Shown here: piece after piece, positions 4,523-64,000 of the stretch
How positions within the stretch are numbered: the first letter of the stretch is position 1
How the letters are laid out: every line of letters starts with the position of its first letter
DNA from: Eubacteriales bacterium
GTDB lineage: Bacteria; Bacillota; Clostridia; Christensenellales; Aristaeellaceae
Length of the DNA stretch: 64,000 nt
Assembly: GCA_028693055.1 (NCBI GenBank)
Contig: JAQUWD010000003.1
Span: 62,001 to 126,000, forward strand
Reading direction: 5' to 3'
The notes under the pieces: generated by a model
What the model was told of the DNA's origin: nothing
The model's database searches: none
The model's input: only the letters and a program-made list of their open reading frames with translations
Made by a program: the position numbers and the translations under genes

Positions 4523-7018
<2,496 letters not shown>

Positions 7019-7033
7019 ATATTTCCTCCTGTT

Positions 7034-8032
7034 TTAAGCGTTTAGCCGTTCGCGGATCAGATCGCAGCGCGCCACGTTGACGGGTGCACCGCTTTCGTGG
7101 TCGGCGGCATAGAGCTTGGAATGCGCGTTTTGCGCGATGGTCAACAATTCATCCACTGTACAAAGCGACGTGGGCAGCAGCTCCAGTGCCGTTCCCAGAC
7201 GGAGGTTGCTCCAATGCTGCATAAATTCCTTCTCATCCATGGTGACGGCATATTTGAGAATGCCGTAGCTTCTCAAAATGGTATCCTTTAGCTCATTTTG
7301 CTGCTGCGTCAGGCAGCGTTCCCGAAGGGCACCTTCCATATCGATCAGCTGCTTGCCAACGGCGGTAACCGCCTCAACGATATCATCCTCCGTGCGTCCC
7401 AAGGTTACCTGATTGCTTACTTGATACAGGTCTCCCAAGGCTTCGCTGCCCTCACCGTAGATCCCCCGCATTGTAACCCCAAGCTTAGCTACGCTCTGGT
7501 TGATGTTACCCATCTGCTTAAAGCGCGTAAGCATTGGCAGATGAAGCATTAACGATGCGCGCATGCCTGTGCCGGTGTTGGTAGGACATGCGGTTAAGTA
7601 GCCGAGCTGAGAATCAAAGCTGAAACCGCAGACCTTGCCTAGCAGCGCCTCCGTTTCATAAGCCGCATTTGCGGCGGCTGGCAAATCAAAGTCCGCTATC
7701 AAAGATTGAATGCGCAGATGATCCTCTTCGTTAATCATAATACTAATCTGCTGATCCTTGCGGATCAGCGCCGCGCCGACGCTGCTGTTTTGCAGTAAAT
7801 CACGGCTGATCAGATGCTGCTCTACCAAGGCCATTCGGTTTGTTTTGGCCATGTCGTTGAGCACATGCAAAGTATAAACGTCATCCGTTCCGTTGTGCAT
7901 GGCTTCGCAGGCTCTTTGAACGCAAAGCTTTGCATTTTCGGGACGCTCCGCGTTGGAAAACGGAAGATCGAAATAATTACGGGCTAGCCTAACGCGTCCG
8001 GACACAATGACGTTGCCCACATTCTCTGTCAT
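7034..8032 (-). CDS. mcsB: Protein-arginine kinase McsB
   Basis: This 332-residue member of the phosphagen kinase fold phosphorylates arginine side chains and marks damaged proteins for ClpC-ClpP. The phosphagen-kinase core is visible in VSGRVRLARN near the N terminus and in the active-site stretch YLTACPTNTGTGMRASLMLH, which holds the conserved cysteine. The start codon overlaps the mcsA stop by ATGA, so translation of mcsB depends at least partly on ribosomes that finish mcsA. This makes the amber codon inside mcsA relevant for McsB levels. McsB normally needs McsA as activator. Confidence 0.96.
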   Translation of the reverse strand: MTENVGNVIVSGRVRLARNYFDLPFSNAERPENAKLCVQRACEAMHNGTDDVYTLHVLNDMAKTNRMALVEQHLISRDLLQNSSVGAALIRKDQQISIMINEEDHLRIQSLIADFDLPAAANAAYETEALLGKVCGFSFDSQLGYLTACPTNTGTGMRASLMLHLPMLTRFKQMGNINQSVAKLGVTMRGIYGEGSEALGDLYQVSNQVTLGRTEDDIVEAVTAVGKQLIDMEGALRERCLTQQQNELKDTILRSYGILKYAVTMDEKEFMQHWSNLRLGTALELLPTSLCTVDELLTIAQNAHSKLYAADHESGAPVNVARCDLIRERLNA

Positions 8033-8547
8033 GGCTTGCTTTCTCCTTCCCCGTTTGTGGAGAGCGCACGAAGCTCGTCGCGATATTTTGCCGCATCTTC
8101 GAAGTTTTCACAAGCAATGGCTTCATCCATTTTTTGGTGAAGAGCTTCCCGTTCCTTGTCAAGCTCCGACAATTCAGCTTTTTCGGAATGCGTTTCCGCA
8201 CCCGTCGGCGTGTGCCCCACGTGCTGTGTGCAGCCGTGGATACGCTGCAAAAGCGGCTTCAGCTACTCCGAAAAATCTCGGTAGCACTGCGCGCAGCCCA
8301 GCTTGCCGGTGCGCTCAAAGGTAGAATAGTGCAGACCGCATTGACTGCATACAGGGCTTGTATCCGCTTGAACGCTGCCTAGCACCGAGAGAATGGAGCT
8401 AAGAAAGCTTTGAATATCTCCCTGAGAAAGGCTGAGCTCCATTTTTTTCATGCAATCCCCGCACAGATGGCGTATTTTAACCTCGTCTCCGCTGGTTATG
8501 GTAATGGAATAGGCGGCTTCATTTTTTTGGCATTCCTCGCACAGCAT
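8029..8547 (-). pseudogene. mcsA: McsA, activator of McsB, interrupted by an in-frame TAG codon
   Basis: From the ATG at 8547, preceded by AAGGAGG at good spacing, the frame gives a zinc-finger protein with CxxC pairs (MLCEECQ, CGDC, CSQC, CAQC). After YRDFSE there is a TAG at codon 95 (8263-8265). The same frame then continues with LKPLLQRIHGCTQHVG, the conserved central McsA segment, and a UVR motif ENFEDAAKYRDELRAL, ending at 8029 in an ATGA overlap with mcsB. Without the TAG the product would have a normal length of about 172 residues. A CAG-to-TAG change is the simplest explanation. It may be a true nonsense mutation, a sequencing error, read-through, or re-initiation at the TTG at 8250. 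TAG ends other genes here, so the code is standard. Confidence 0.85.
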
Positions 8548-8560
8548 TGGCTTCGCCTCC

Positions 8561-9040
8561 TTATGCTTGCTGCGGCTTGCCCTTACGGGCAACCTCAAGC
8601 AGCATATTCTTTAGGATTTTTGCTCGAATCGCATCCTTCATTTCAACCGGGATCGGTAGACTGAGCGCGGGCGGGGCAACCGCAGCCTGCATTAGCGCTG
8701 CTTCTCCCTCGGTTACCAATACCCGTTCCTGTAGCTGCTGAATCAGATGGCTGGCAGATAGCGCATTGATCGATTCGCCCACCCTTTCATGAATCAAGTA
8801 CAGAAGCTGATCTCCGGTACTTTGCTCCATGCGAAAGATACGTATGCAGCCTCCTCCGCCTCGATGACTTTCAATAATATAGCCATGATCAGGCGTAAAA
8901 CGGGTGGCGAGAACGTAGTTAATCTGGGAGGGAGCACAGTTGAAATACTCCGCAAGCTCGTTGCGCTTGAGCTCGATTTGTTGTTCATCATCCACCAGCA
9001 TGGTTTTAATAAACTGCTCAATGGCGTCGCTTAATCGCAT
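8561..9040 (-). CDS. ctsR: Transcriptional repressor CtsR
   Basis: This 159-residue repressor of class III heat-shock genes has a winged helix-turn-helix (NELAEYFNCAPSQINYVLATRF) and the tetraglycine wing in HRGGGGCIRI that contacts the operator. McsB and McsA inactivate it under stress. The ATG at 9040 has an AGGAGG site; the frame stays open upstream but without family similarity. A CtsR box overlaps the predicted transcription start, so the operon is autoregulated. It is the first gene of ctsR-mcsA-mcsB-clpC, with 13 bases to mcsA. Confidence 0.96.
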   Translation of the reverse strand: MRLSDAIEQFIKTMLVDDEQQIELKRNELAEYFNCAPSQINYVLATRFTPDHGYIIESHRGGGGCIRIFRMEQSTGDQLLYLIHERVGESINALSASHLIQQLQERVLVTEGEAALMQAAVAPPALSLPIPVEMKDAIRAKILKNMLLEVARKGKPQQA

Positions 9041-9068
9041 AAAATTACCTCCTTTCGTCAAAGAACAC

Positions 9069-9209: not shown

Positions 9210-10163
9210 ATGGGACGTCCCACCATCCGTACGGTGGCGCAGGCTGTCGGCGTAGCGCCAAATACAGTGTCCTTGGCGCTACAGGATTCGCCGCTGGTAG
9301 CCAACGAGACGAAACGAAAGGTGCTTGAGGAGGCGGAGCGTCAAGGCTATCAAAGAGACGCGCTGGCCCAAGCCCTTCGAAGTGGACGCAGTCATAGTAT
9401 TGCACTGGCGTTTGTGGATGTTGCCAATCCTCTTTTTGCCATGCGGATAAAAGCGTTATCTTTGGCTTTTCGAAAGCTTAACTACCAAACCTTTATTTTA
9501 AATACCGATGAGGATGCGGCGCTGGAAGCGCTTCTGCTTAGGAGCGCAGTGGAGCGAAAAGCAGACGGCGTGGTGCTCTGTCCCTGTCAGGGGGACCGAG
9601 CCGGACTAACAATGCTTCAAAGAGCCGGGATCCCCTGCGTCTTGGTTGGGCGGCAGTTTCAAAAGCCACAGGAGGATGCGGTGGTTTGGGATGATCAAAT
9701 GGGAGGTCGTCTGGCTACTGAATTTTTACTTTCCAAGGGTTGCCGCCGTATTTTACATCTGACTGCCAGCCATGATGTATCCAGCTCCTTCCTGCGCATG
9801 TCGGGATATCGGGAGGCCATTGAAAATAAGGGACTTGCTTTTGATCCGGCGCTGATTGTGAAAGCGTCGTCAATGGGCGGTATTGAAGAATCATTAGCTG
9901 GCGCGCCATCGGATTACGACGGCCTTTTTGCCTTTAACGACCTACTGGCATGGGAAGCCATGTCCCTTGGCGTTGCTTTGCCCACCGTAGGCTTTGATAA
10001 TATTCAAGCGTATCTTCGTCTGCCGATGAAGCTATCGTCTATTAGCGCTGATTTAGAGCTGGAAACCCAGTGGATTACGGAGCTATTGATGCGACGAATC
10101 AAGGAGCCAGACCGAGCGTACGAAACGCGGGTTCTGCCTGTTTCACTGGTAGAACGGGATTAA
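9210..10163 (+). CDS. LacI-family transcriptional regulator
   Basis: This 317-residue regulator starts with a LacI helix-turn-helix (TIRTVAQAVGVAPNTVSLAL, residues 5-24) and hinge, followed by a sugar-binding-protein-like ligand domain (SIALAFVDVANPLFAMRIK, DGLFAFNDLLAWEAM). A GGGGG stretch at 9196-9200 serves as ribosome binding site. It lies just upstream of the promoter carrying two identical palindromes of LacI type, so it almost certainly controls the downstream glycyl radical enzyme unit. Its inducer is unknown but is likely a sugar or glycoside linked to the GH127 enzyme. Confidence 0.93.
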   Translation: MGRPTIRTVAQAVGVAPNTVSLALQDSPLVANETKRKVLEEAERQGYQRDALAQALRSGRSHSIALAFVDVANPLFAMRIKALSLAFRKLNYQTFILNTDEDAALEALLLRSAVERKADGVVLCPCQGDRAGLTMLQRAGIPCVLVGRQFQKPQEDAVVWDDQMGGRLATEFLLSKGCRRILHLTASHDVSSSFLRMSGYREAIENKGLAFDPALIVKASSMGGIEESLAGAPSDYDGLFAFNDLLAWEAMSLGVALPTVGFDNIQAYLRLPMKLSSISADLELETQWITELLMRRIKEPDRAYETRVLPVSLVERD

Positions 10164-10169
10164 ATTTGA

Positions 10170-10198
10170 TTGACAGATCAACGGAAAAGATGTATACT
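10170..10198 (+). promoter_or_regulatory. Promoter of the glycyl radical enzyme operon
   Basis: TTGACA (10170-10175) and TATACT (10193-10198) are separated by exactly 17 bases, and a TG precedes the -10 element. This near-consensus promoter would be strong unless repressed, which agrees with the operators just downstream. Confidence 0.88.
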
Positions 10199-10207
10199 AT
10201 TTAAAAA

Positions 10208-10221
10208 TAGGAACGTTCCTA
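10208..10221. promoter_or_regulatory. LacI-type operator O1
   Basis: The perfect palindrome TAGGAACGTTCCTA has the central CG of LacI-family operators and sits over the expected transcription start. Binding here would block RNA polymerase. Confidence 0.88.
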
Positions 10222-10241
10222 ATTCTTTACTTTGGTTAAAA

Positions 10242-10255
10242 TAGGAACGTTCCTA
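10242..10255. promoter_or_regulatory. LacI-type operator O2
   Basis: This is an exact second copy of TAGGAACGTTCCTA, 34 bases centre-to-centre from O1, between the promoter and the AAAGGAG ribosome binding site at 10261. Two identical operators suggest cooperative or roadblock repression. Confidence 0.88.
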
Positions 10256-10273
10256 AAACTAAAGGAGCTTTGT

Positions 10274-11119
10274 ATGCTCGGTTCGGTTTTTGATGTGGAA
10301 GAGTTTGCCGTATATGATGGCCCGGGAATTCGCAGCGTTGTCTTTTTAAAGGGTTGCCCTCTGCACTGCTCATGGTGCCATAACCCGGAAGGGCTTGACT
10401 TTGGGTGTCAACGGATTACATCGCGAAATCTATGCATGCATTGCGGCGCATGCGACGCAGTTTGTCCCTCCCCAAAGCATTGTACGGGCTGCGGGAAATG
10501 CGCTGAAATCTGTCCCGCCGATTGCATCCACATCGCCGGAAAACCTGTCGATGCAGAGCTGATTGCAAAAAGGGTATTACAAAACGCAGCGCTTTTGAAA
10601 ATGAACGGCGGCGGCGTTACCTTTTCCGGCGGAGAGCCGCTGGCGCAACCGGATTTTGTTTTAGAATTACGCGGATGGATGAAGGAGCTGCACGCTTGCA
10701 TAGAGAGCAGCGGCTATGCGTCCGCCGCCGTGTTTCAGCGGGTGATGAGCGCTATGGATTTCATCATCATGGACGTAAAGCTGGTAAACTCCGAAAAGCA
10801 CCGCCGCTATACCGGAGTTGATAATCAGCTGATTCTTTCTAACCTACAATGGCTTAAATCCAGCGATAAACCTTTTCGTATCCGAATACCGCTAATACCC
10901 ACAGTAAACGACGATTGGGATAATATGACTGCCACCGCCAAGCTGTTACTTGGCGCACATAATTTAGAAAAGGTAGAGCTGTTACCCTATCATCAGACGG
11001 CAGGAGCGAAATATGAAAGCGCTGGTCGTGTTTATCTTCCGAATTTTCCCGTAGCCACGCCGCCACATATCATTACCGAACCCTTTACAAAGCTTGGAAT
11101 GGAGGTAACCGTATTATGA
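10274..11119 (+). CDS. Glycyl radical enzyme activase (radical SAM)
   Basis: This 281-residue protein installs the glycyl radical on the partner enzyme using S-adenosylmethionine. The radical SAM motif CxxxCxxC is seen in KGCPLHCSWCHNPEG, followed by a ferredoxin-like insert with two further four-cysteine clusters (CMHCGACDAVCP and CTGCGKCAEICP), typical of activases for dehydratase-type glycyl radical enzymes. GGVTFSGGEPLAQP is the SAM-binding GGE motif. The ATG at 10274 is chosen because AAAGGAG precedes it by seven bases; an upstream in-frame start would overlap the operator O2. Its stop overlaps the start of the glycyl radical enzyme (ATGA). Confidence 0.95.
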   Translation: MLGSVFDVEEFAVYDGPGIRSVVFLKGCPLHCSWCHNPEGLDFGCQRITSRNLCMHCGACDAVCPSPKHCTGCGKCAEICPADCIHIAGKPVDAELIAKRVLQNAALLKMNGGGVTFSGGEPLAQPDFVLELRGWMKELHACIESSGYASAAVFQRVMSAMDFIIMDVKLVNSEKHRRYTGVDNQLILSNLQWLKSSDKPFRIRIPLIPTVNDDWDNMTATAKLLLGAHNLEKVELLPYHQTAGAKYESAGRVYLPNFPVATPPHIITEPFTKLGMEVTVL

Positions 11120-13098
11120 ATTACCTAGACGAGGAAAGAAATTTTCTGCGGGATGGAGGCCAGAACGCATATCGGCGCGAGCTTGACGACAAACGCTTTC
11201 GGGAAATCGCCAACCTCATTCAAAACCCGGAGCTTTCCCTTGACATGCGAGCCGCTTTGCGACTGAAGCTTTTCCTTGAGGAAGAAGAAATCATCCGTCG
11301 TCCGGGAGAACGCATTCCGGGCTGGCGTACGCTGAGGAGCTTCCCTGACCTTTATCGAGACGGTGAGGCGAAAGCGCTTCATGCAGGACATTACATTCAT
11401 GAACAGGGACGGGTCTGCAACATATCCAGCGATTGGGAGGGCGTGTTGAAAAACGGCTTGTTGTGTCGGAAAACAGGCGATGCGGCCAGAGATTTATGTA
11501 TCGACGCAGTACTGGCTTATGCAGACCGCTATGAGAATGAAGCGCTTTCTCACGGGCTGCGCTATGGCGTCGAAGGCTATCTGGAAGGCTTGCAGGCGTT
11601 CCGGATTCTCCATTTCTGTCTATGGTGCAGCAATGTTTATCATAATACGGTGGGACGCTTTGATCAATATATGATGCCCTATCTGGAAAAGGATTTGCAG
11701 GCAAAGCGTTTAACGTTAGATGAAGCGCAGGAGATGACGGAGGAATTCTTTCTCTCCTTCAACCGGGACAGCGATCTTTATACCGGCATGCAGCAGGGGG
11801 ATAACGGCCAAAGCATGATGCTGGGCGGTTGTGATGCGGATGGAAAAAACGCGGTCAACCTATTGACGGAGATTTGCTTGAAAGCCAGCTTACACAACCG
11901 CTGTATTGATCCGAAAATCAATCTTCGGGTCAACGGAGAAACGCCTTTTTCACTCTATCAACTGGGTACGGAGCTGACAAGACAAGGCCTTGGCTTTCCG
12001 CAATATGACAACGACGACGTTGTGATTCCCGCATTGGTTGGTTATGGATACGATTTGCACGATGCGAGAAATTATACGGTCGCGGCGTGCTGGGAGTTCA
12101 TCATTCCCGGATTGGGAATGGACATCCCCAATATTGCGGCTTTGTGTCTGGCAGATGCCGTTAGCGTATGCGTGCGGAATCATTTGCTGGAGTGCAAAAC
12201 CTATGAAGCTTTTTTTGACCAAGTGCGAGCAGAAATCGACAAACGCGCCCGTGAGATCGCCACCTCTGTTCAATCCCTATGGATGGAACCCGCGCCATGG
12301 CAAAGCGTGCTGATGTCCGATTACACCCACGATATCAGCGAAGGCGCCAAGTACAATCAGTATGGTATTCACGGCACCGGCTTTAGCGACGCAGTTGATC
12401 AGCTTGCCGTGGTTTCTCAGTTCATTTTTCAGGAAGAAAGCCTATCAAAGGAGCGGCTTTTAGAAGGATTGGAAAGTAATTTTGAAAACGATCTTTCCTT
12501 GCGAAAGCTTTTGCGCGGAGAAAAAGCGCCCAAGCTGGGGCGTGATTCGCAGTGCGAGCCTATCGCCGACGCACTGCTAACTGCCTTTGGGGATGCCGTG
12601 CGTCCTTTGAAAAACGAACGCGGCGGCTGCTTCCGTGCGGGAACGGGAAGCGCCATGTACTATTTGTGGCATGCGGAGCACTTACCCACGCTTTGTAACG
12701 GTCATCAAACGGGAGAAAAGCTGCCCGCCAATTTTTCCCCTTCACTGCTTCTACAGGATGCGGGGCCGTTATCGGTTTTGCGGGCAATGGCTCGTCCGGC
12801 ACTGTCTCACGCAATGAATGGTGGGCCGTTGACGTTGGAACTGCACGACACGGTATTTCGCACCCAAGAGGGTGTTGACAAGGTAGCCCGACTTGTGCAG
12901 AGCTACATTAAGCTCGGCGGACATCAGCTTCAGCTAAACGCAGTCAGCCCGGAAACCCTTCTGGACGCAAAGAAGCATCCTGAAAACCATCGTGGGCTGA
13001 TTGTACGCGTCTGGGGATGGAGCGGTCATTTCGTCCAATTGGATCAAGCTTATCAGGAGCAGATAATCACGCGGGTCAGTTATCACTCTGTATCGTGA
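11116..13098 (+). CDS. Glycyl radical enzyme of unknown substrate (PFL-like, 660 residues)
   Basis: The C terminus holds the glycyl radical loop RVWGWSGHF with Gly634, 26 residues from the end. The thiyl-radical loop is AACWEF, giving Cys325 and Glu327. A Cys-x-Glu pair is the pattern of dehydratase and lyase members such as CutC, glycerol dehydratase and HypD, and differs from the Cys-Cys of pyruvate formate-lyase. The spacing from Cys to Gly (309 residues) is normal, but the N-terminal part is roughly 100 residues shorter than in classical members, so it belongs to a short subfamily. The substrate is unknown. Linkage to a GH127 glycosidase and a LacI regulator suggests a sugar-derived or glycosylated amino-acid-derived substrate. 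Confidence 0.9.
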   Translation: MNYLDEERNFLRDGGQNAYRRELDDKRFREIANLIQNPELSLDMRAALRLKLFLEEEEIIRRPGERIPGWRTLRSFPDLYRDGEAKALHAGHYIHEQGRVCNISSDWEGVLKNGLLCRKTGDAARDLCIDAVLAYADRYENEALSHGLRYGVEGYLEGLQAFRILHFCLWCSNVYHNTVGRFDQYMMPYLEKDLQAKRLTLDEAQEMTEEFFLSFNRDSDLYTGMQQGDNGQSMMLGGCDADGKNAVNLLTEICLKASLHNRCIDPKINLRVNGETPFSLYQLGTELTRQGLGFPQYDNDDVVIPALVGYGYDLHDARNYTVAACWEFIIPGLGMDIPNIAALCLADAVSVCVRNHLLECKTYEAFFDQVRAEIDKRAREIATSVQSLWMEPAPWQSVLMSDYTHDISEGAKYNQYGIHGTGFSDAVDQLAVVSQFIFQEESLSKERLLEGLESNFENDLSLRKLLRGEKAPKLGRDSQCEPIADALLTAFGDAVRPLKNERGGCFRAGTGSAMYYLWHAEHLPTLCNGHQTGEKLPANFSPSLLLQDAGPLSVLRAMARPALSHAMNGGPLTLELHDTVFRTQEGVDKVARLVQSYIKLGGHQLQLNAVSPETLLDAKKHPENHRGLIVRVWGWSGHFVQLDQAYQEQIITRVSYHSVS

Positions 13099-13110
13099 GG
13101 GTAGAAGCAT

Positions 13111-14781
13111 ATGGATAAAAAATATCAGGTACCCTATCGGACCCAAGCGCCTATGGGAGGCGTCCGTTTGACCGGCGGAAGGTTTGCTCGTGCATTTGAA
13201 AACAACGTTGATTTTCTTAAGGGCTTTGATCTGGACAGAATGCTGTACTGGTACCGGGTACACGCCGGCAAACCCGCGCAGGGTGTTCCTTACGCCGCCG
13301 GTGACGGTCATTTTGAAAACAATCTGAAAGGGCAGACCGCCGGAGAATTTTTAATGGGCGCATGCACTTCTCTACTTTGGAAGGAAGATGAAGCGCTTCG
13401 TAAGACAGTCCGGGCGATTCTGGACGAGATTAGCGGTGATAGCGAGCCTGACGGATTTTTGCTTCCCATCACCCAAGAGGAGTACCGTACCAGAGAATAT
13501 CCCAACTACACACGGGCATGGGTCACCTTTGGACTACTGGATGCGGGCTATGCCGGGGAGGAGCGCGGCTTTACGCTGGCTCGCGCCATGAGCGACAGCT
13601 TTAACCATAGCGAAGTGCTGCCCTACGTTAAGGATATGAATTTAGGCTTCCAAGGCATCCTTGCTTCTACGCGTATGTATGATGCGCCAAACGGCAAAAA
13701 CATGGATGTGGAGGTGGCGCGTCAATACTACCAGGAGGACTGGTGGCTGAAGCAAATAGCGTCCGGGGATCAACGCGCGATTTACGACCATCCCGGCAAC
13801 CATCCTCATTCCACACTGTTAACCACTTTGGAGGGATACTTAGATTTATATCGTATCACCGGCGAGCCATTATATTGGAATGCGGTAACCTCCGCTTTAT
13901 CCATGTATGAAAAGGAGTGGCAGCATGTGGGCGGTGGTATTGCCATGTGCGAAAACGATACCTTTTATCCCGGATGCCTGTGGCTATCGCCGGAGCATCA
14001 TTATAACGAGCTATGCTCCACCAATTTCTGGGTGCTGCTGAATCAACGAATGCAAAGGCTTGAGCCTGACAACGCGCATTATGCAGACGAAATGGAAAAT
14101 TCTCTTTATAATGTACTCTTGGCGGCTCAAGTGGGAAATCAAGGCTACCATTATCTTAACTTTTTGGAGCGTATAAAGGACTGGCGCTATTTAGACCGCG
14201 CCACCTGCTGCGCTAGCCTTGGCACCCGGCTTTGCGGATTGCTGCCACAGTTTCTCTATACCTATTCGGAGACAGAGGTGTATGTGAATCTTTATGCGCA
14301 AAGCACGGCTTCCTTGCCAAACGGAGTAACGCTTTGCTGCGATACCTGTATGCCCGATGACGGGCATGTGAAAATACGCATTATAAAGGCGGATCAGCCC
14401 ATCTGCTTACATCTGCGGATACCGCGCTGGGCTGTAAAGGATGGCAAATCCTATTACGAGGTGCATCAGAACGTAAAGACAGGGGATTGCTTTACGTTGG
14501 ATTTTCCCATGAGCTATCGGGTCACTCATTACCGGGGCGGCGAACGCAAGCCGGATGAAGATCGTTGCGCGTTGGAGTATGGTCCATTGCTATATGCTGC
14601 CATGGGGGCGCCCAACCCAGTACAGGTTCACTGGAACGCACACGAGCCAGAAAAATGGTTTATTCCCATAGCGGGTGAGAAACGCCGATTAAAACTGGCT
14701 GGAGATACGACTCATGAATACTGGGCATATTGTGAAATCGGGGATGAACCGTTCAGCGTATACCCTGTCGTAAAAGAGTAA
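13111..14781 (+). CDS. Glycoside hydrolase family 127 (DUF1680) protein
   Basis: This 556-residue protein resembles HypBA1-type beta-L-arabinofuranosidases. The zinc/cysteine active site of that family appears conserved: Glu300 and Cys302 in NELCST, and Cys366-Cys367 in ATCCAS, where the first cysteine of the pair would be the nucleophile. An (alpha/alpha) barrel is followed by beta-sandwich segments. No signal peptide is seen, so it acts on imported oligosaccharides or glycopeptides. It starts 12 bases after the glycyl radical enzyme and belongs to the same operon. Known members cut beta-L-arabinofuranosyl links on hydroxyproline-rich glycoproteins or in pectin side chains; the exact substrate here is not certain. 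Confidence 0.88.
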   Translation: MDKKYQVPYRTQAPMGGVRLTGGRFARAFENNVDFLKGFDLDRMLYWYRVHAGKPAQGVPYAAGDGHFENNLKGQTAGEFLMGACTSLLWKEDEALRKTVRAILDEISGDSEPDGFLLPITQEEYRTREYPNYTRAWVTFGLLDAGYAGEERGFTLARAMSDSFNHSEVLPYVKDMNLGFQGILASTRMYDAPNGKNMDVEVARQYYQEDWWLKQIASGDQRAIYDHPGNHPHSTLLTTLEGYLDLYRITGEPLYWNAVTSALSMYEKEWQHVGGGIAMCENDTFYPGCLWLSPEHHYNELCSTNFWVLLNQRMQRLEPDNAHYADEMENSLYNVLLAAQVGNQGYHYLNFLERIKDWRYLDRATCCASLGTRLCGLLPQFLYTYSETEVYVNLYAQSTASLPNGVTLCCDTCMPDDGHVKIRIIKADQPICLHLRIPRWAVKDGKSYYEVHQNVKTGDCFTLDFPMSYRVTHYRGGERKPDEDRCALEYGPLLYAAMGAPNPVQVHWNAHEPEKWFIPIAGEKRRLKLAGDTTHEYWAYCEIGDEPFSVYPVVKE

Positions 14782-14797
14782 AGTCTCAAAACAATGC

Positions 14798-14826
14798 TTG
14801 CCAACGGACGCGCGAACCCCTATAAT
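14798..14826 (+). promoter_or_regulatory. Promoter of proA
   Basis: TTGCCA (14798-14803) and a consensus TATAAT (14821-14826) are separated by 17 bases, shortly after the GH127 stop and 29 bases before the proA start. It gives proA its own transcript. Confidence 0.85.
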
Positions 14827-14855: not shown

Positions 14856-16181
14856 ATGGGGGAGAAGCACCGCATACGCGATATGGCCGTCGTTGCCAGA
14901 GAAGCTTCCATTCAGCTTTGCGAAACGACGATTGAGAAAAGAAACGCCGCTTTATGCTGCATCGGCGAGGAGCTAACGGTCCACACGGACGAGCTGCTTG
15001 CCATAAATAAGCTAGACGTGGAACAAGCCGAGGCTGAAGGGCTAAGCGCGCCGCTTTTGAGCCGTTTGAAGCTGACCGCTGAGAAATGCCGTCGTATGGT
15101 GGAAGGCTTACAGGCGTTGAGCAAGCTGCCTGATCCCTTGGGCAAGGTACAGTATGCCACGGAGATAGCTGACGAGTTGGCTCTTTACAGGGTAGGCTGT
15201 CCTATCGGGGTAATCGGGATCATTTTTGAAAGCCGCCCCGACGCCTTGGTGCAGATTTCCTCCTTATGCCTGAAAAGCGGAAATGCCGTGCTGCTCAAAG
15301 GGGGAAGAGAAGCCCTTCGTTCCAATGAGTTTCTCACCCGCTTGATTGTTTCCGCTTCCGTCAAAGCGGGCATTCCCGCCGGATGGTGCGATCTTTTGCA
15401 CTCCCGGGAGGATGTGACGGAAATGCTTAAGCAGCACGATCTGATCGATTTGATCATTCCCAGAGGAAGCAACGCCTTTGTGCGCTATATTATGCAAAAT
15501 AGCGAGATTCCCGTGCTGGGGCACGCTGAGGGGCTTTGCCATGTTTATGTGGATGATCCCTGCGATGTGGAAATGGCTGTAAAGGTGGCTGTGGATAGCA
15601 AGGCGCAGAACCTTTCTGTTTGTAATGCCGCTGAAACGCTGCTAGTACATCAGAATATCGCCGCTTCCTTTTTACCCAAAGCTGCGGCTGCTTTTGCGGA
15701 ACGAAAAATAGAGCTGCGAGGCGATGAGCGGGTTCAATCCATCATCGCCTGCAACCCCGCCGTGGATGAGGATTGGCACACGGAATATTTGGATGCCATT
15801 CTATCCATCAAAATTGTGGATTCGCTGGATTCGGCTATCAAGCACATTAACACCTACGGTTCCCACCATACGGACAGCATTCTCAGCTCGGACATGGAGC
15901 ATGTGAACCGCTTTATGACATTGATTGACAGCGCTGATGTTTTTCATAACTGCTCCACCCGTTTTTCGGACGGATTCCTTTATGGCTTTGGAGCAGAAGT
16001 GGGAATTGCTACCGGCAAGCTGCATGCTCGCGGGCCTATGGGACTGGAGGGGCTGTGCACGTATAAGTACCGTCTCTATGGCCATGGGCAAACCCTAACG
16101 GACTTAAACGAGCAGAACATTAAGCTCACTCACAGGGAGCTGTTGCTAAAGCTACCTGAGCAGTCTTCAAACGAGTTTTAA
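14856..16181 (+). CDS. proA: Glutamate-5-semialdehyde dehydrogenase (gamma-glutamyl phosphate reductase)
   Basis: This 441-residue NADPH-dependent enzyme reduces gamma-glutamyl phosphate to glutamate-5-semialdehyde in proline synthesis. Visible hallmarks are GVIGIIFESRPDA, the LKGGREAL segment, and the catalytic cysteine in SVCNAAETLLVH. The C-terminal part has the typical VFHNCSTRFSDGFLYGFGAEVGI stretch. The partner proB is not adjacent; proC is found at 37188. The gene has its own promoter and is convergent with bioY, overlapping its end by 15 bases. Confidence 0.96.
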   Translation: MGEKHRIRDMAVVAREASIQLCETTIEKRNAALCCIGEELTVHTDELLAINKLDVEQAEAEGLSAPLLSRLKLTAEKCRRMVEGLQALSKLPDPLGKVQYATEIADELALYRVGCPIGVIGIIFESRPDALVQISSLCLKSGNAVLLKGGREALRSNEFLTRLIVSASVKAGIPAGWCDLLHSREDVTEMLKQHDLIDLIIPRGSNAFVRYIMQNSEIPVLGHAEGLCHVYVDDPCDVEMAVKVAVDSKAQNLSVCNAAETLLVHQNIAASFLPKAAAAFAERKIELRGDERVQSIIACNPAVDEDWHTEYLDAILSIKIVDSLDSAIKHINTYGSHHTDSILSSDMEHVNRFMTLIDSADVFHNCSTRFSDGFLYGFGAEVGIATGKLHARGPMGLEGLCTYKYRLYGHGQTLTDLNEQNIKLTHRELLLKLPEQSSNEF

Positions 16182-61925: not shown

Positions 61926-64000
61926 ATCAGCCGAAGCCCAAGACCACTCAGCAGACACATACCCAGCCAAAGCAGCGGCTTGCTGTTGTCGCCCGTTTGG
62001 GGCGGTACAACAGCAGGAGAAATGTACAGCGTGGCAATGCCTGAACGCAGCGTATTTCCATGGGCGTCGGTGAGCAGACAGCCATATTGATAACCGTTAT
62101 TTTCCAGTGTGACCGGTGCGGTCGTCTGACTTGTTCCCGTTTTCCCACTCGATTTTTGCCAGCCGAGCCCGTCATTTCGATTGATATACCATTGATAAGT
62201 AAGTCCGTCGCCCGTTGCAGCAAGCGTAAATGTTGCTTGTTGTCCGACTACGACGTATTGATCGATGGGTTGCGTGGTGATAGATGGCTTGGCAATTGTC
62301 ATCAGCGTTGCCCCATTGCTCGTCGCATTAGGTGAAACGCCATTGGACACGATACAACGATACTGGTATCCATTCATAGCCGTGGTCGTATTCGGCGTTG
62401 TATATCTCGTAGTTGTTCCACCCGCACCATCTGTTACATTGCTCCAGTTTATACCGCCGTTTTTAGAGACCTGCCATTGATAACCTAGCGCAGGCTTGCC
62501 GTCTGCTGCAACAGTAAACGTCGATGCTTCACCCTCAATTACGGATTGGCTTATTGGCTGTATGCGAATAGAGGGTGCGACCTGCGCAGCAACTACCGTC
62601 AGCGTCATTTCCTGATTAGCAGGATTGTTGTAGTTGCCGGATGTATCTGCCACGGTTGCCGTGAAGGTCAACGTTGCGCCAACGGCAGTCGTTGCTGGAA
62701 TGACGTAGCTTGCAGTATAATGCCCTGCTTGACCGCTGACTGAAGCGAGTGACAGCGCACCCTCCGGTCCGCTTAGCGCAACTCCGTCAGGCTGTGTCCA
62801 GCCGCTGTCGGCAAGGGAGTTTTCGCCATTGGCCGCGCCTACAGAAAGCGTAATCGTGGTTCCCGGAGCCGCGTTACCGGGGTTGGAGGAAACCTGTAGG
62901 GTTATTGCAGCTGGATAAATCGACAGCGATCCCTGTGTGTAGTCAATGATGTACTTGCTTCCAGCAGAAAGGCTTCCCTGCCTAATCGTATACGAATAAC
63001 CGGCAGTTTCTCCCGCATCACGAGCGAGTGCTCCCGTCAGTAGACTTGCAGTATCTGATCCAACCCAGCCGGTTGCTGTATAATTCAATGTTGGATCAAG
63101 CTGTCCGTACTTCTTGCTTTGGTTGCTAGCAAACACAGTCAGCCCAGTCGGAGTAGGTGGGATAGGCACGCTGCTGACCTCTACCTTTGCCACGGAGGAA
63201 AACACCGTACTTGCACCCAGACAAGTGGCTTGGCAAAGGTAGTAATACGTTCCTGCGACAAGGGAGGTCGGGATGGCAAACGTATCATTTGCACCAAGGG
63301 CGTCACCAGACTTCACGCCGCTTTCGTTGCATGCAAACCAGCCTAACGTTGGTGCATTGCCGTTCGATACGCTCACCACCACGCTTAAGCTGCCCTTGAT
63401 GTTTCCCGCCGTGACTGTAGTTACTGCGGCAGGTTCGGTTGTGAAGGTGATCTTCGGCACAACGGGCGCGGTATACACATACTCCGCGCTTTTTGCACTT
63501 TGATCGCTATCCGCATAGTTTACGCTATCTCCAACAGCCGTTACAGCAAAGGCATATCTACCCGCTTCGGTAATGGCGGACGTAAAGTTATACTCTGTCG
63601 CTATCACGGGCACTGCCGCGCCCTGCGCAATCCAGACCTGTGCCGCGTCGCTTTTGTAGAGCTGCACAGAATAGCCCGTTGCATTGGTAACCGCGTTCCA
63701 TTTCGCATTGCCGGAAAGCGTTGCATCCCAAACAAGACCCGTTGGCGTGTCCAGCTTCGCCGTGCTGGCTTTGCCAACGACCACCGTTGCCACGTTGGAA
63801 AGCACAGAAACCGCGCCGCTTGAGACGGCCTCACAGAGGTAGTAATACACACCCGCTTCTAAGTCGGTAGGCAGTGTGAAGGAAGTACCGGTGGCAAGAA
63901 CGTTTCCATTGCTGATGCCGTTTTCGTCGCAGGAGTACCAGCTGAGCGTTACAGCCGCCGAGGGCAAAACCGCCGCTTCAGCGGTCAGCGAAGCAGTGAT
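61889..64000 (-). CDS. Sortase-anchored surface protein with Ig-like and MBG repeats (5' end outside window)
   Basis: At least 703 residues are visible and the frame stays open to the window edge. From the N side there are two related repeats (ending GVYYYLCEAV and GTYYYLCQAT) flanking a fibronectin-type-III-like segment (LDTPTGLVWD...WNAVTNATGYSVQLY), an MBG-type domain (KKYGQLDPTLNYTATG), and two Ig-like domains with YQWQVSKNGG and YQWYINRNDG cores. The C terminus has VPPQTGDN, a hydrophobic helix and RKKRR, the sortase sorting signal (LPXTG variant). It would be covalently attached to the cell wall and may bind host or plant surfaces. It overlaps the decayed sensor gene tail to tail. Confidence 0.88.
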   Translation of the reverse strand: MTASLTAEAAVLPSAAVTLSWYSCDENGISNGNVLATGTSFTLPTDLEAGVYYYLCEAVSSGAVSVLSNVATVVVGKASTAKLDTPTGLVWDATLSGNAKWNAVTNATGYSVQLYKSDAAQVWIAQGAAVPVIATEYNFTSAITEAGRYAFAVTAVGDSVNYADSDQSAKSAEYVYTAPVVPKITFTTEPAAVTTVTAGNIKGSLSVVVSVSNGNAPTLGWFACNESGVKSGDALGANDTFAIPTSLVAGTYYYLCQATCLGASTVFSSVAKVEVSSVPIPPTPTGLTVFASNQSKKYGQLDPTLNYTATGWVGSDTASLLTGALARDAGETAGYSYTIRQGSLSAGSKYIIDYTQGSLSIYPAAITLQVSSNPGNAAPGTTITLSVGAANGENSLADSGWTQPDGVALSGPEGALSLASVSGQAGHYTASYVIPATTAVGATLTFTATVADTSGNYNNPANQEMTLTVVAAQVAPSIRIQPISQSVIEGEASTFTVAADGKPALGYQWQVSKNGGINWSNVTDGAGGTTTRYTTPNTTTAMNGYQYRCIVSNGVSPNATSNGATLMTIAKPSITTQPIDQYVVVGQQATFTLAATGDGLTYQWYINRNDGLGWQKSSGKTGTSQTTAPVTLENNGYQYGCLLTDAHGNTLRSGIATLYISPAVVPPQTGDNSKPLLWLGMCLLSGLGLRLIIRKKRRASIAK

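Follow-up and report, generated by a model that had tools for sequence, protein, structure and literature searches.

What does a bacterium do with a glycyl radical enzyme (GRE) whose gene stands between that of a radical SAM activase and that of a GH127-family protein, all three behind a LacI-family repressor? The question is raised by a stretch of 64,000 nucleotides (hereafter the window; positions 62,001 to 126,000 of contig JAQUWD010000003.1, assembly GCA_028693055.1) from a Eubacteriales bacterium whose closest named relatives are gut Clostridia. A sequence-only reading of the window had assigned the unit no pathway, and had suggested that it first cuts a plant glycoconjugate and then opens the released product by radical chemistry. 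Here we describe the anatomy of the operon and its regulatory sites, a distinct family of GREs to which the central enzyme belongs by its sequence, a conserved link of this family to GH127, and the recurrent company of arabinose genes around it. Our explanation of these observations is a tentative one, and we give it, as a whole, somewhat less than an even chance: the operon would be induced by a sugar-like ligand, the GH127 enzyme would free L-arabinose, and the GRE would dehydrate the free sugar.

The glycyl radical enzyme and its relatives

The GRE gene (window positions 11116..13098, + strand) codes for 660 residues with a PFL-like domain (PF02901, 204 bits) and a Gly_radical domain (PF01228, 62 bits), and carries the motifs C325-W326-E327 and R-V-W-G634-W-S; these domains, the partner activase and the predicted fold place the protein in the GRE class. 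It is the only PFL-like match in the host genome. The activase gene (10274..11119, +; start at ATG, preceded by AAAGGAG) encodes a radical SAM GRE activase of 281 residues, which scores 265 bits against TIGR02494 (cut-off 174). Pfam, NCBIfam and alignment thus agree with the sequence-only reading on the activase, on the length of the GRE and on the positions of Cys325, Glu327 and Gly634.

All the NCBIfam GRE models listed score far under their cut-offs for this enzyme, the best being TIGR01774 (238.5 bits against 678.2), and the model of HypD (NF043068) gives 211.3 bits against a cut-off of 1100. Aligned with nine relatives, the window GRE served to scan a species-genome collection; at least 577 relatives were returned among at least 593 pattern-bearing stretches, and the best 80 were taken as loci. 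The hosts of the clade are Clostridia, Bacteroidales and one Verrucomicrobiota bin, and its named carriers include Hungatella hathewayi DSM 13479, Diplocloster agilis and Ructibacterium gallinarum; seven pattern matches on viral contigs included no relative. In a tree of 104 rows, made by a quick method with just two outside rows (PflD and YbiW of E. coli), the 102 short GREs stand together, apart from PflD and YbiW, which are joined by long branches. Twenty loci with duplicate GREs enter neither the tree nor the neighbour counts given below; the tree also leaves out L022 and L023, which contig ends truncate, and rows of more than 700 residues were trimmed N-terminally (more than 720 in the 125-row alignment discussed next). 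We regard the window GRE, on this evidence from sequence, as a member of a distinct, uncharacterised family of short GREs that the NCBIfam models leave unnamed, in agreement with what had been suspected; clustering with a characterised family did not occur. The shorter N terminus noted earlier is also found across the clade, whose median length is 682 residues (102 rows; open frames with unrefined starts, nine rows cut at 700), against 759-897 residues for nearly all the solved full-length GREs matched.

The alignment of 125 rows, in which some contigs appear under two locus identifiers and 23 rows were picked for holding AACW, has C325-W-E327 in every row (the Cys and Trp partly by construction, through the picked rows), which is the signature of the C-x-E class. 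N339 is present in 125/125 rows and N102 in 123 (two gaps), Gly634 is Gly in 123 (one D, one gap), and W326, H419, R507, Y516, E575, W633 and W635 are constant in every clade row with a letter there. PflD and YbiW differ from the clade at positions 102, 326, 339, 419, 507, 516, 575, 633 and 635. Judged from these rows, the residue set around the active-site region is distinct, and its Asn and Trp residues may be of the sort common in sugar binding.

The predicted structure (mean pLDDT 92.3) has as its closest folds, in Foldseek, glycerol dehydratase, propanediol dehydratase and PflD. The glycerol/propanediol dehydratases (1r8w, 5i2g, 9rco) share the fold of the window GRE (TM-score 0.84 over the query, rmsd 4.8 for 1r8w), and glycerol dehydratase also has in common with it the C-x-E motif, the glycyl radical loop and His281, the counterpart of H176. 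Identity is nevertheless 22-23%, and the window enzyme lacks about 100 residues at the N terminus and has, unlike these dehydratases, a Trp beside the catalytic Cys and one to either side of the radical Gly. In the alignment H164, S282 and D447 of glycerol dehydratase, among which we take the active-site His and Asp to be, are replaced by N102, N177 and N339; with H164 and D447 both missing and a TIGR01774 score under the cut-off, the window GRE falls outside the glycerol/propanediol dehydratases. HypD (trans-4-hydroxy-L-proline dehydratase) is a GRE of gut anaerobes with the same fold, from which the window GRE is set off by its model score, as the clade is by having no conserved proline-gene neighbourhood. 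PflD and YbiW, the 1,5-anhydromannitol/glucitol-6-phosphate GREs, resemble the window GRE in their C-x-E motif and act on a sugar-derived ring; their anhydrohexitols are, however, phosphorylated, and they do not group with the clade. According to the passages of PMC12441222 that cite Ma et al. 2024, these two enzymes convert anhydrohexitol-6-phosphates to 1-deoxyfructose-6-phosphate, and they are a precedent for GREs acting on sugar rings. A literature search at title level, with most subscription journals outside its coverage, gave no title on a GRE paired with GH127, arabinofuranosidase, arabinose, lactonase or sugars.

In L222 a second, distant short GRE (10892-12898, - strand; 668 residues), with an ACC motif instead of C-x-E and an activase of its own, lies immediately upstream of the clade member; DeoC, GH43, Zn-ADH, FGGY and SMP-30 genes stand in the same row. 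A pair of GREs is also present in L224.

The GH127 protein and its linkage to the family

The last gene of the unit (13111..14781, +) encodes a protein of 556 residues matching PF07944 (83.5 bits, cut-off 24.9) and PF20736; Pfam gave no match in it to PF20737, the usual C-terminal domain. A signal peptide was not seen by eye, and the enzyme is probably cytoplasmic. It shares with HypBA1, the GH127 beta-L-arabinofuranosidase of PDB 3wkw, the catalytic and middle domains and the E/C/C/C site, while the overall similarity is weak and partial (E 1.8e-8). Residues E300, C302, C366 and C367 align to E338, C340, C417 and C418 of 3wkw, presumably the Glu-Cys-Cys-Cys metal and nucleophile site of HypBA1, and are invariant in 14/14 aligned GH127 rows, so that the intact site read earlier from the letters is borne out. 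No glutamate aligns to E322, which we take to be the acid/base of HypBA1; E281, three residues off in the alignment to 6ex6, is invariant and may fill this role. C280 and C289 (window 13948-13977), between the candidate acid/base Glu and the metal site, are likewise invariant in 14/14 GH127 relatives.

Conserved linkage of GH127 to the GRE in related genomes had been set as a test of the pairing, and it was found. A GH127 gene adjoins the GRE in eight loci, in the orders LacI-activase-GRE-GH127 (window, L026), activase-GRE-GH127-GH127 (L024), LacI-GH127-GRE-activase (L175), GH127-LacI-GRE-activase (L060), GRE-activase-GH127 (L205) and GH127-GRE-activase (L223, L019). Those of the GH127-linked loci that were placed in the tree fall on at least three separate branches, and L205 (genome G259) and L223 (G352) come from two taxonomic families other than the host's. 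The GH127 proteins of L060 and L205 are 39-45% identical to the window type, and L223 has a GH127 of the common type, C-terminal domain included. Two more cases are looser: in L023 GH51 immediately precedes the activase and a GH127 of 67% identity lies on the same contig, 11 kb away, and in G086 GH127 and activase are together, the GRE being found on another contig.

Among 200 genomes of the host's family, the window type of GH127 (E <=1e-40) is present in 16, the GRE (E <=1e-100) in 40 and both in 13 (hypergeometric 5e-8); counted per genus, the GRE accompanies this GH127 type in nine genera of ten (p 0.008). The three GH127 genomes outside the overlap are G009 and G084, where the search returned no GRE, and G033, where the GRE is cut by a contig end. 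Over 391 genomes of the class, the GRE occurs in 20 and the GH127 type in two, the host itself and G259, in which the gene lies inside the GRE operon. By tblastn, GH127 was found within 9 kb of the GRE in 10 of 104 loci against 1.2 expected from its density in 35 same-family genomes, a comparison that serves as a guide only, the loci being related and not all of the same family, and some matches being weak or 8-9 kb off; the count is also low, having missed the GH127 that adjoins the GRE in L019. As the loci in the neighbour counts are related, the Poisson and hypergeometric values are to be read as guides. The GH127-GRE link is, all the same, recurrent and conserved.

In G017 (L108:274-9226, - strand) GH127 is followed by a Ldh_2-like dehydrogenase, a KDPG-type aldolase, a possible aldo/keto reductase, a DUF4147/MOFRL protein (glycerate-kinase-like), an enolase paralogue and an ALDH-like gene; the genes after GH127 resemble a sugar-acid route.

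The substrate: a reading and its alternatives

Arabinose genes recur in the wider neighbourhood of the family. Within 9 kb, GH127, GH51 or GH43 is found in 19 of the 104 GRE loci, AraA, AraD or a FucI-like isomerase in 8, and one or other of these in 27. L172 reads GH43-GH51-GRE-activase and L023 GH51-activase-GRE; in L173 araA, an FGGY kinase gene and the start of araD run divergent from the GRE, and its sister L068 has the same araA-kinase-araD set in the same position, with araA scoring over its curated cut-off. The AraBAD pathway handles the sugar that we propose here for the GRE, and genes of this type adjoin it in these two loci, but it is an isomerase-kinase-epimerase route without radical chemistry. 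A sugar-porter MFS gene lies within 9 kb in 15/104 loci, in all of them next or nearly next to the GRE or activase, and these loci have GH51 in five cases and a mutarotase in six; an RbsC-type permease is near ten other GRE loci (RbsA-type matches, which include generic ABC ATPases, were not used). Several Bacteroidales loci run activase-GRE-sugar porter and then GH51 or mutarotase. Three members have a lactonase-type gene at their side (PF10282 in L047, SMP-30 in L066 and L222). Weak AraA-domain matches, probably FucI-like isomerases, occur in 9/200 genomes, seven of which carry the GRE, as was noticed after the fact.

GH127, GH51 and much of GH43 usually share L-arabinose as their product whereas their aglycones differ, and it is for this reason that we infer L-arabinose to be the GRE substrate; a free aldose would go well with a sugar porter and a mutarotase as neighbours of the GRE. 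The earlier suggestion is upheld as far as the GH127 link goes, and has to be widened in that these GREs are paired with several families of arabinosidases, GH127 being one, and the pairing with GH51 and GH43 points to freed L-arabinose over hydroxyproline or another aglycone. Whether the GH127-GRE pair serves L-arabinose freed from plant glycans we consider an evenly balanced matter; for the window GRE itself the substrate is drawn from its clade and its partner.

Events could then run as follows. A small sugar-like ligand would free both operators of the LacI repressor, making the operon substrate-induced; GH127 would split a short imported L-arabinoside and free L-arabinose, and the activase would install a radical on Gly634 of the GRE. 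In the C-x-E dehydratases, hydrogen is abstracted beside a hydroxyl, the Glu deprotonates that hydroxyl, and a group is expelled from the next carbon. By the same logic the radical would move from Gly634 to Cys325, whose thiyl would take a hydrogen from the sugar; Glu327 would deprotonate the hydroxyl of the same carbon, and the neighbouring hydroxyl would be lost as water, with His176 as the likely acid. On the simplest course the hydrogen would come from the anomeric carbon C1 of the cyclic sugar and the 2-hydroxyl would leave, giving 2-deoxy-L-pentonolactone, to be opened by a lactonase or by water. The lactonase-type genes mentioned above would fit such a product, a suggestive but rare company. 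That glycosidase action precedes radical chemistry on the freed product, as first proposed, is a reasonable candidate sequence of events, "opening" of that product being one of several possible radical outcomes; the more exact proposal that the family removes water at the anomeric centre of free, unphosphorylated aldoses (H from C1, OH from C2), turning L-arabinose into a 2-deoxy-pentonolactone, we think unlikely to hold in just this form.

New GRE families have repeatedly uncovered new anaerobic reactions of gut microbes, and the present family is widespread, occurs in named strains and has neighbours that tie it to plant pentoses. Should free sugars be its substrates, a radical route would be added to fibre fermentation, and the gut would have a source of 2-deoxy-sugar acids. 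If the chemistry is as sketched, this would be a redox-neutral entry to sugar catabolism bypassing isomerase, kinase and dehydrogenase, and would mirror, in catabolism and with a plain sugar, the reduction of ribonucleotides.

A number of observations weigh against radical dehydration of freed L-arabinose. The neighbour query genes were picked after viewing the loci, so that the counts lean towards them, and some queries hit themselves. In 77/104 loci no arabinose gene of those sought lies within 9 kb (in part because contigs are short), no gene of any kind sought lay near 38/104 (many contigs being short), and lactonases were counted near just 2/104. The window unit itself is without a transporter, a lactonase or a gene for a later step. 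Searched with up to two mismatches, the operator palindrome had no further match in the 3.83-Mb genome assembly, and therefore no transporter can be assigned through the regulon. The host has a separate arabinose operon, without the operator, with araA and araD (araB-araA-araD-like), an FGGY kinase gene and GH51 divergent beside it, which makes the GRE dispensable for ordinary arabinose use. Strong araA matches went with the GRE in 16/53 cases (p 0.027), a weak association, and in the 18 genomes behind clade loci (completeness not given) araA was strong in eight, weak in one and absent from nine. GH127 members are not all arabinofuranosidases, and the AlphaFold model of the window GH127 (mean pLDDT 62.9 from five sequences), poor around the active site, was not used. 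Other company is also kept by the family: alpha-L-rhamnosidase-like, melibiase-like, GH116 and GH106-like glycosidases near some members, and in 7/104 loci, next to or near the GRE, a family of 617-residue proteins. The latter (L041:12008-13858, with relatives in L022, L040, L042, L043, L044 and L075) had no Pfam, NCBIfam or PDB match and is possibly an unnamed glycosidase.

This varied glycosidase company implies that the family may serve several sugars, and leads to the broadest of the alternatives, in which plant sugars of several kinds, freed or modified, or else ring ethers would undergo radical C-O cleavage in the manner of YbiW and PflD, the arabinose neighbours reflecting a plant-fibre lifestyle. 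That PflD and YbiW act on 1,5-anhydrohexitol-6-phosphates (titles of PDB 8id0 and 8id7; PMC12441222, in the passages concerned) speaks for it, as does the frequency of GH127 domains in the host family (38/60 relatives), while the co-occurrence is with one GH127 type that is met again outside that family, GH127 genes lie near the GRE more often than their density predicts (as a guide only), and the clade is set apart from PflD and YbiW in the tree; we hold this alternative to be somewhat improbable. A sugar alcohol as substrate, with a pentose first reduced to a pentitol whose terminal 1,2-diol the GRE dehydrates to a 2-deoxypentose, to be phosphorylated by an FGGY kinase and split by DeoC into acetaldehyde and triose phosphate, would agree with the glycerol/propanediol dehydratases heading the matches by profile and by fold. 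The GRE of Diplocloster agilis (L066) and that of L222 (G325) do keep company with DeoC, FGGY kinase, Zn-ADH and SMP-30 genes, a set that hints at deoxypentose phosphates in some members. Yet DeoC is near 1/104 loci (tblastn), the window unit has no reductase, kinase or DeoC, the partners seen in several Bacteroidales loci (L064, L072, L081, L086) are a porter, a mutarotase or GH51, mutarotases acting on aldoses, and L-arabinitol would not, by our own stereochemical drawing, yield the D-series sugar used by DeoC. We judge the pentitol route quite unlikely.

HypBA1, itself a GH127 member, acts on hydroxyproline arabinosides, and one may imagine that GH127 strips arabinose from a hydroxyproline-rich plant protein and that the GRE, like HypD, dehydrates hydroxyproline towards proline metabolism. 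The idea was raised by a proA-like gene directly downstream of the unit in the window and by a P5C-reductase gene that L025 and L028 have two genes ahead of the activase. It was set aside on the count of proA- or proC-like genes, present near just 3/104 GRE loci; moreover, the proA-like gene of the window has its own promoter, the score against the HypD model is about a fifth of its cut-off, and hydroxyproline is not what the GH51 and GH43 partners set free. A hydroxyproline dehydratase is in our opinion very improbable, and dehydration of freed L-arabinose is the account we retain.

Proteins resembling DUF4867 or ureidoglycolate lyase also recur beside clade members (L071:11981-12628, L066:8556-9050, L054:8623-9108, L056:1567-2070), the gene lying once between GRE and activase.

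Promoter, operators and surroundings

The repressor gene (9210..10163, +; 317 residues) lies directly 5' of the operon and has the LacI helix-turn-helix and a sugar-binding domain (PF00356, PF00532, PF13377). Behind it a sigma-70-type promoter, TTGACA-17-TATACT (10170..10198, +), agrees with the consensus at 11/12 positions, and is followed by two identical copies, 34 bp apart, of a 14-bp palindrome, TAGGAACGTTCCTA (10208..10221 and 10242..10255, +), found by motif search of window and genome, so that the near-consensus promoter and paired operators first noted by inspection are confirmed. In a promoter scan of 6.2 kb, 11 promoter-like sites were found against 6.6 expected, and the site at 10170-10198 stands out by its score, not as a match per se. 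With up to two mismatches the palindrome has no third match within the window (0.17 expected). Palindromic predicted operators with a central CG, together with the domains of the repressor, are what the LacI family leads one to expect. Palindromes of other sequence and with the same AACGTT centre were seen by eye 5' of the activase or GRE gene in L026 and L060. In L026, which has the nearest complete version of the unit, a 53% identical LacI gene takes the same position, and LacI-family genes also adjoin the GRE cluster in L175 and L060.

The activase and GRE genes overlap by 4 bp and a gap of 12 bases separates the GRE from the GH127 gene. The transcription unit probably ends there, because the downstream gene (14856-16181), proA-like by eye and matched by Pfam to Aldedh only, has a promoter of its own at 14798-14826 with 11/12 consensus positions. 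A scan of the window with Rfam (gathering threshold) and for tRNAs gave no match. On the other side, divergent from the LacI gene, lies a ClpC-type ATPase gene with, by eye, mcsB-, mcsA- and ctsR-like genes (4523-9056, - strand).

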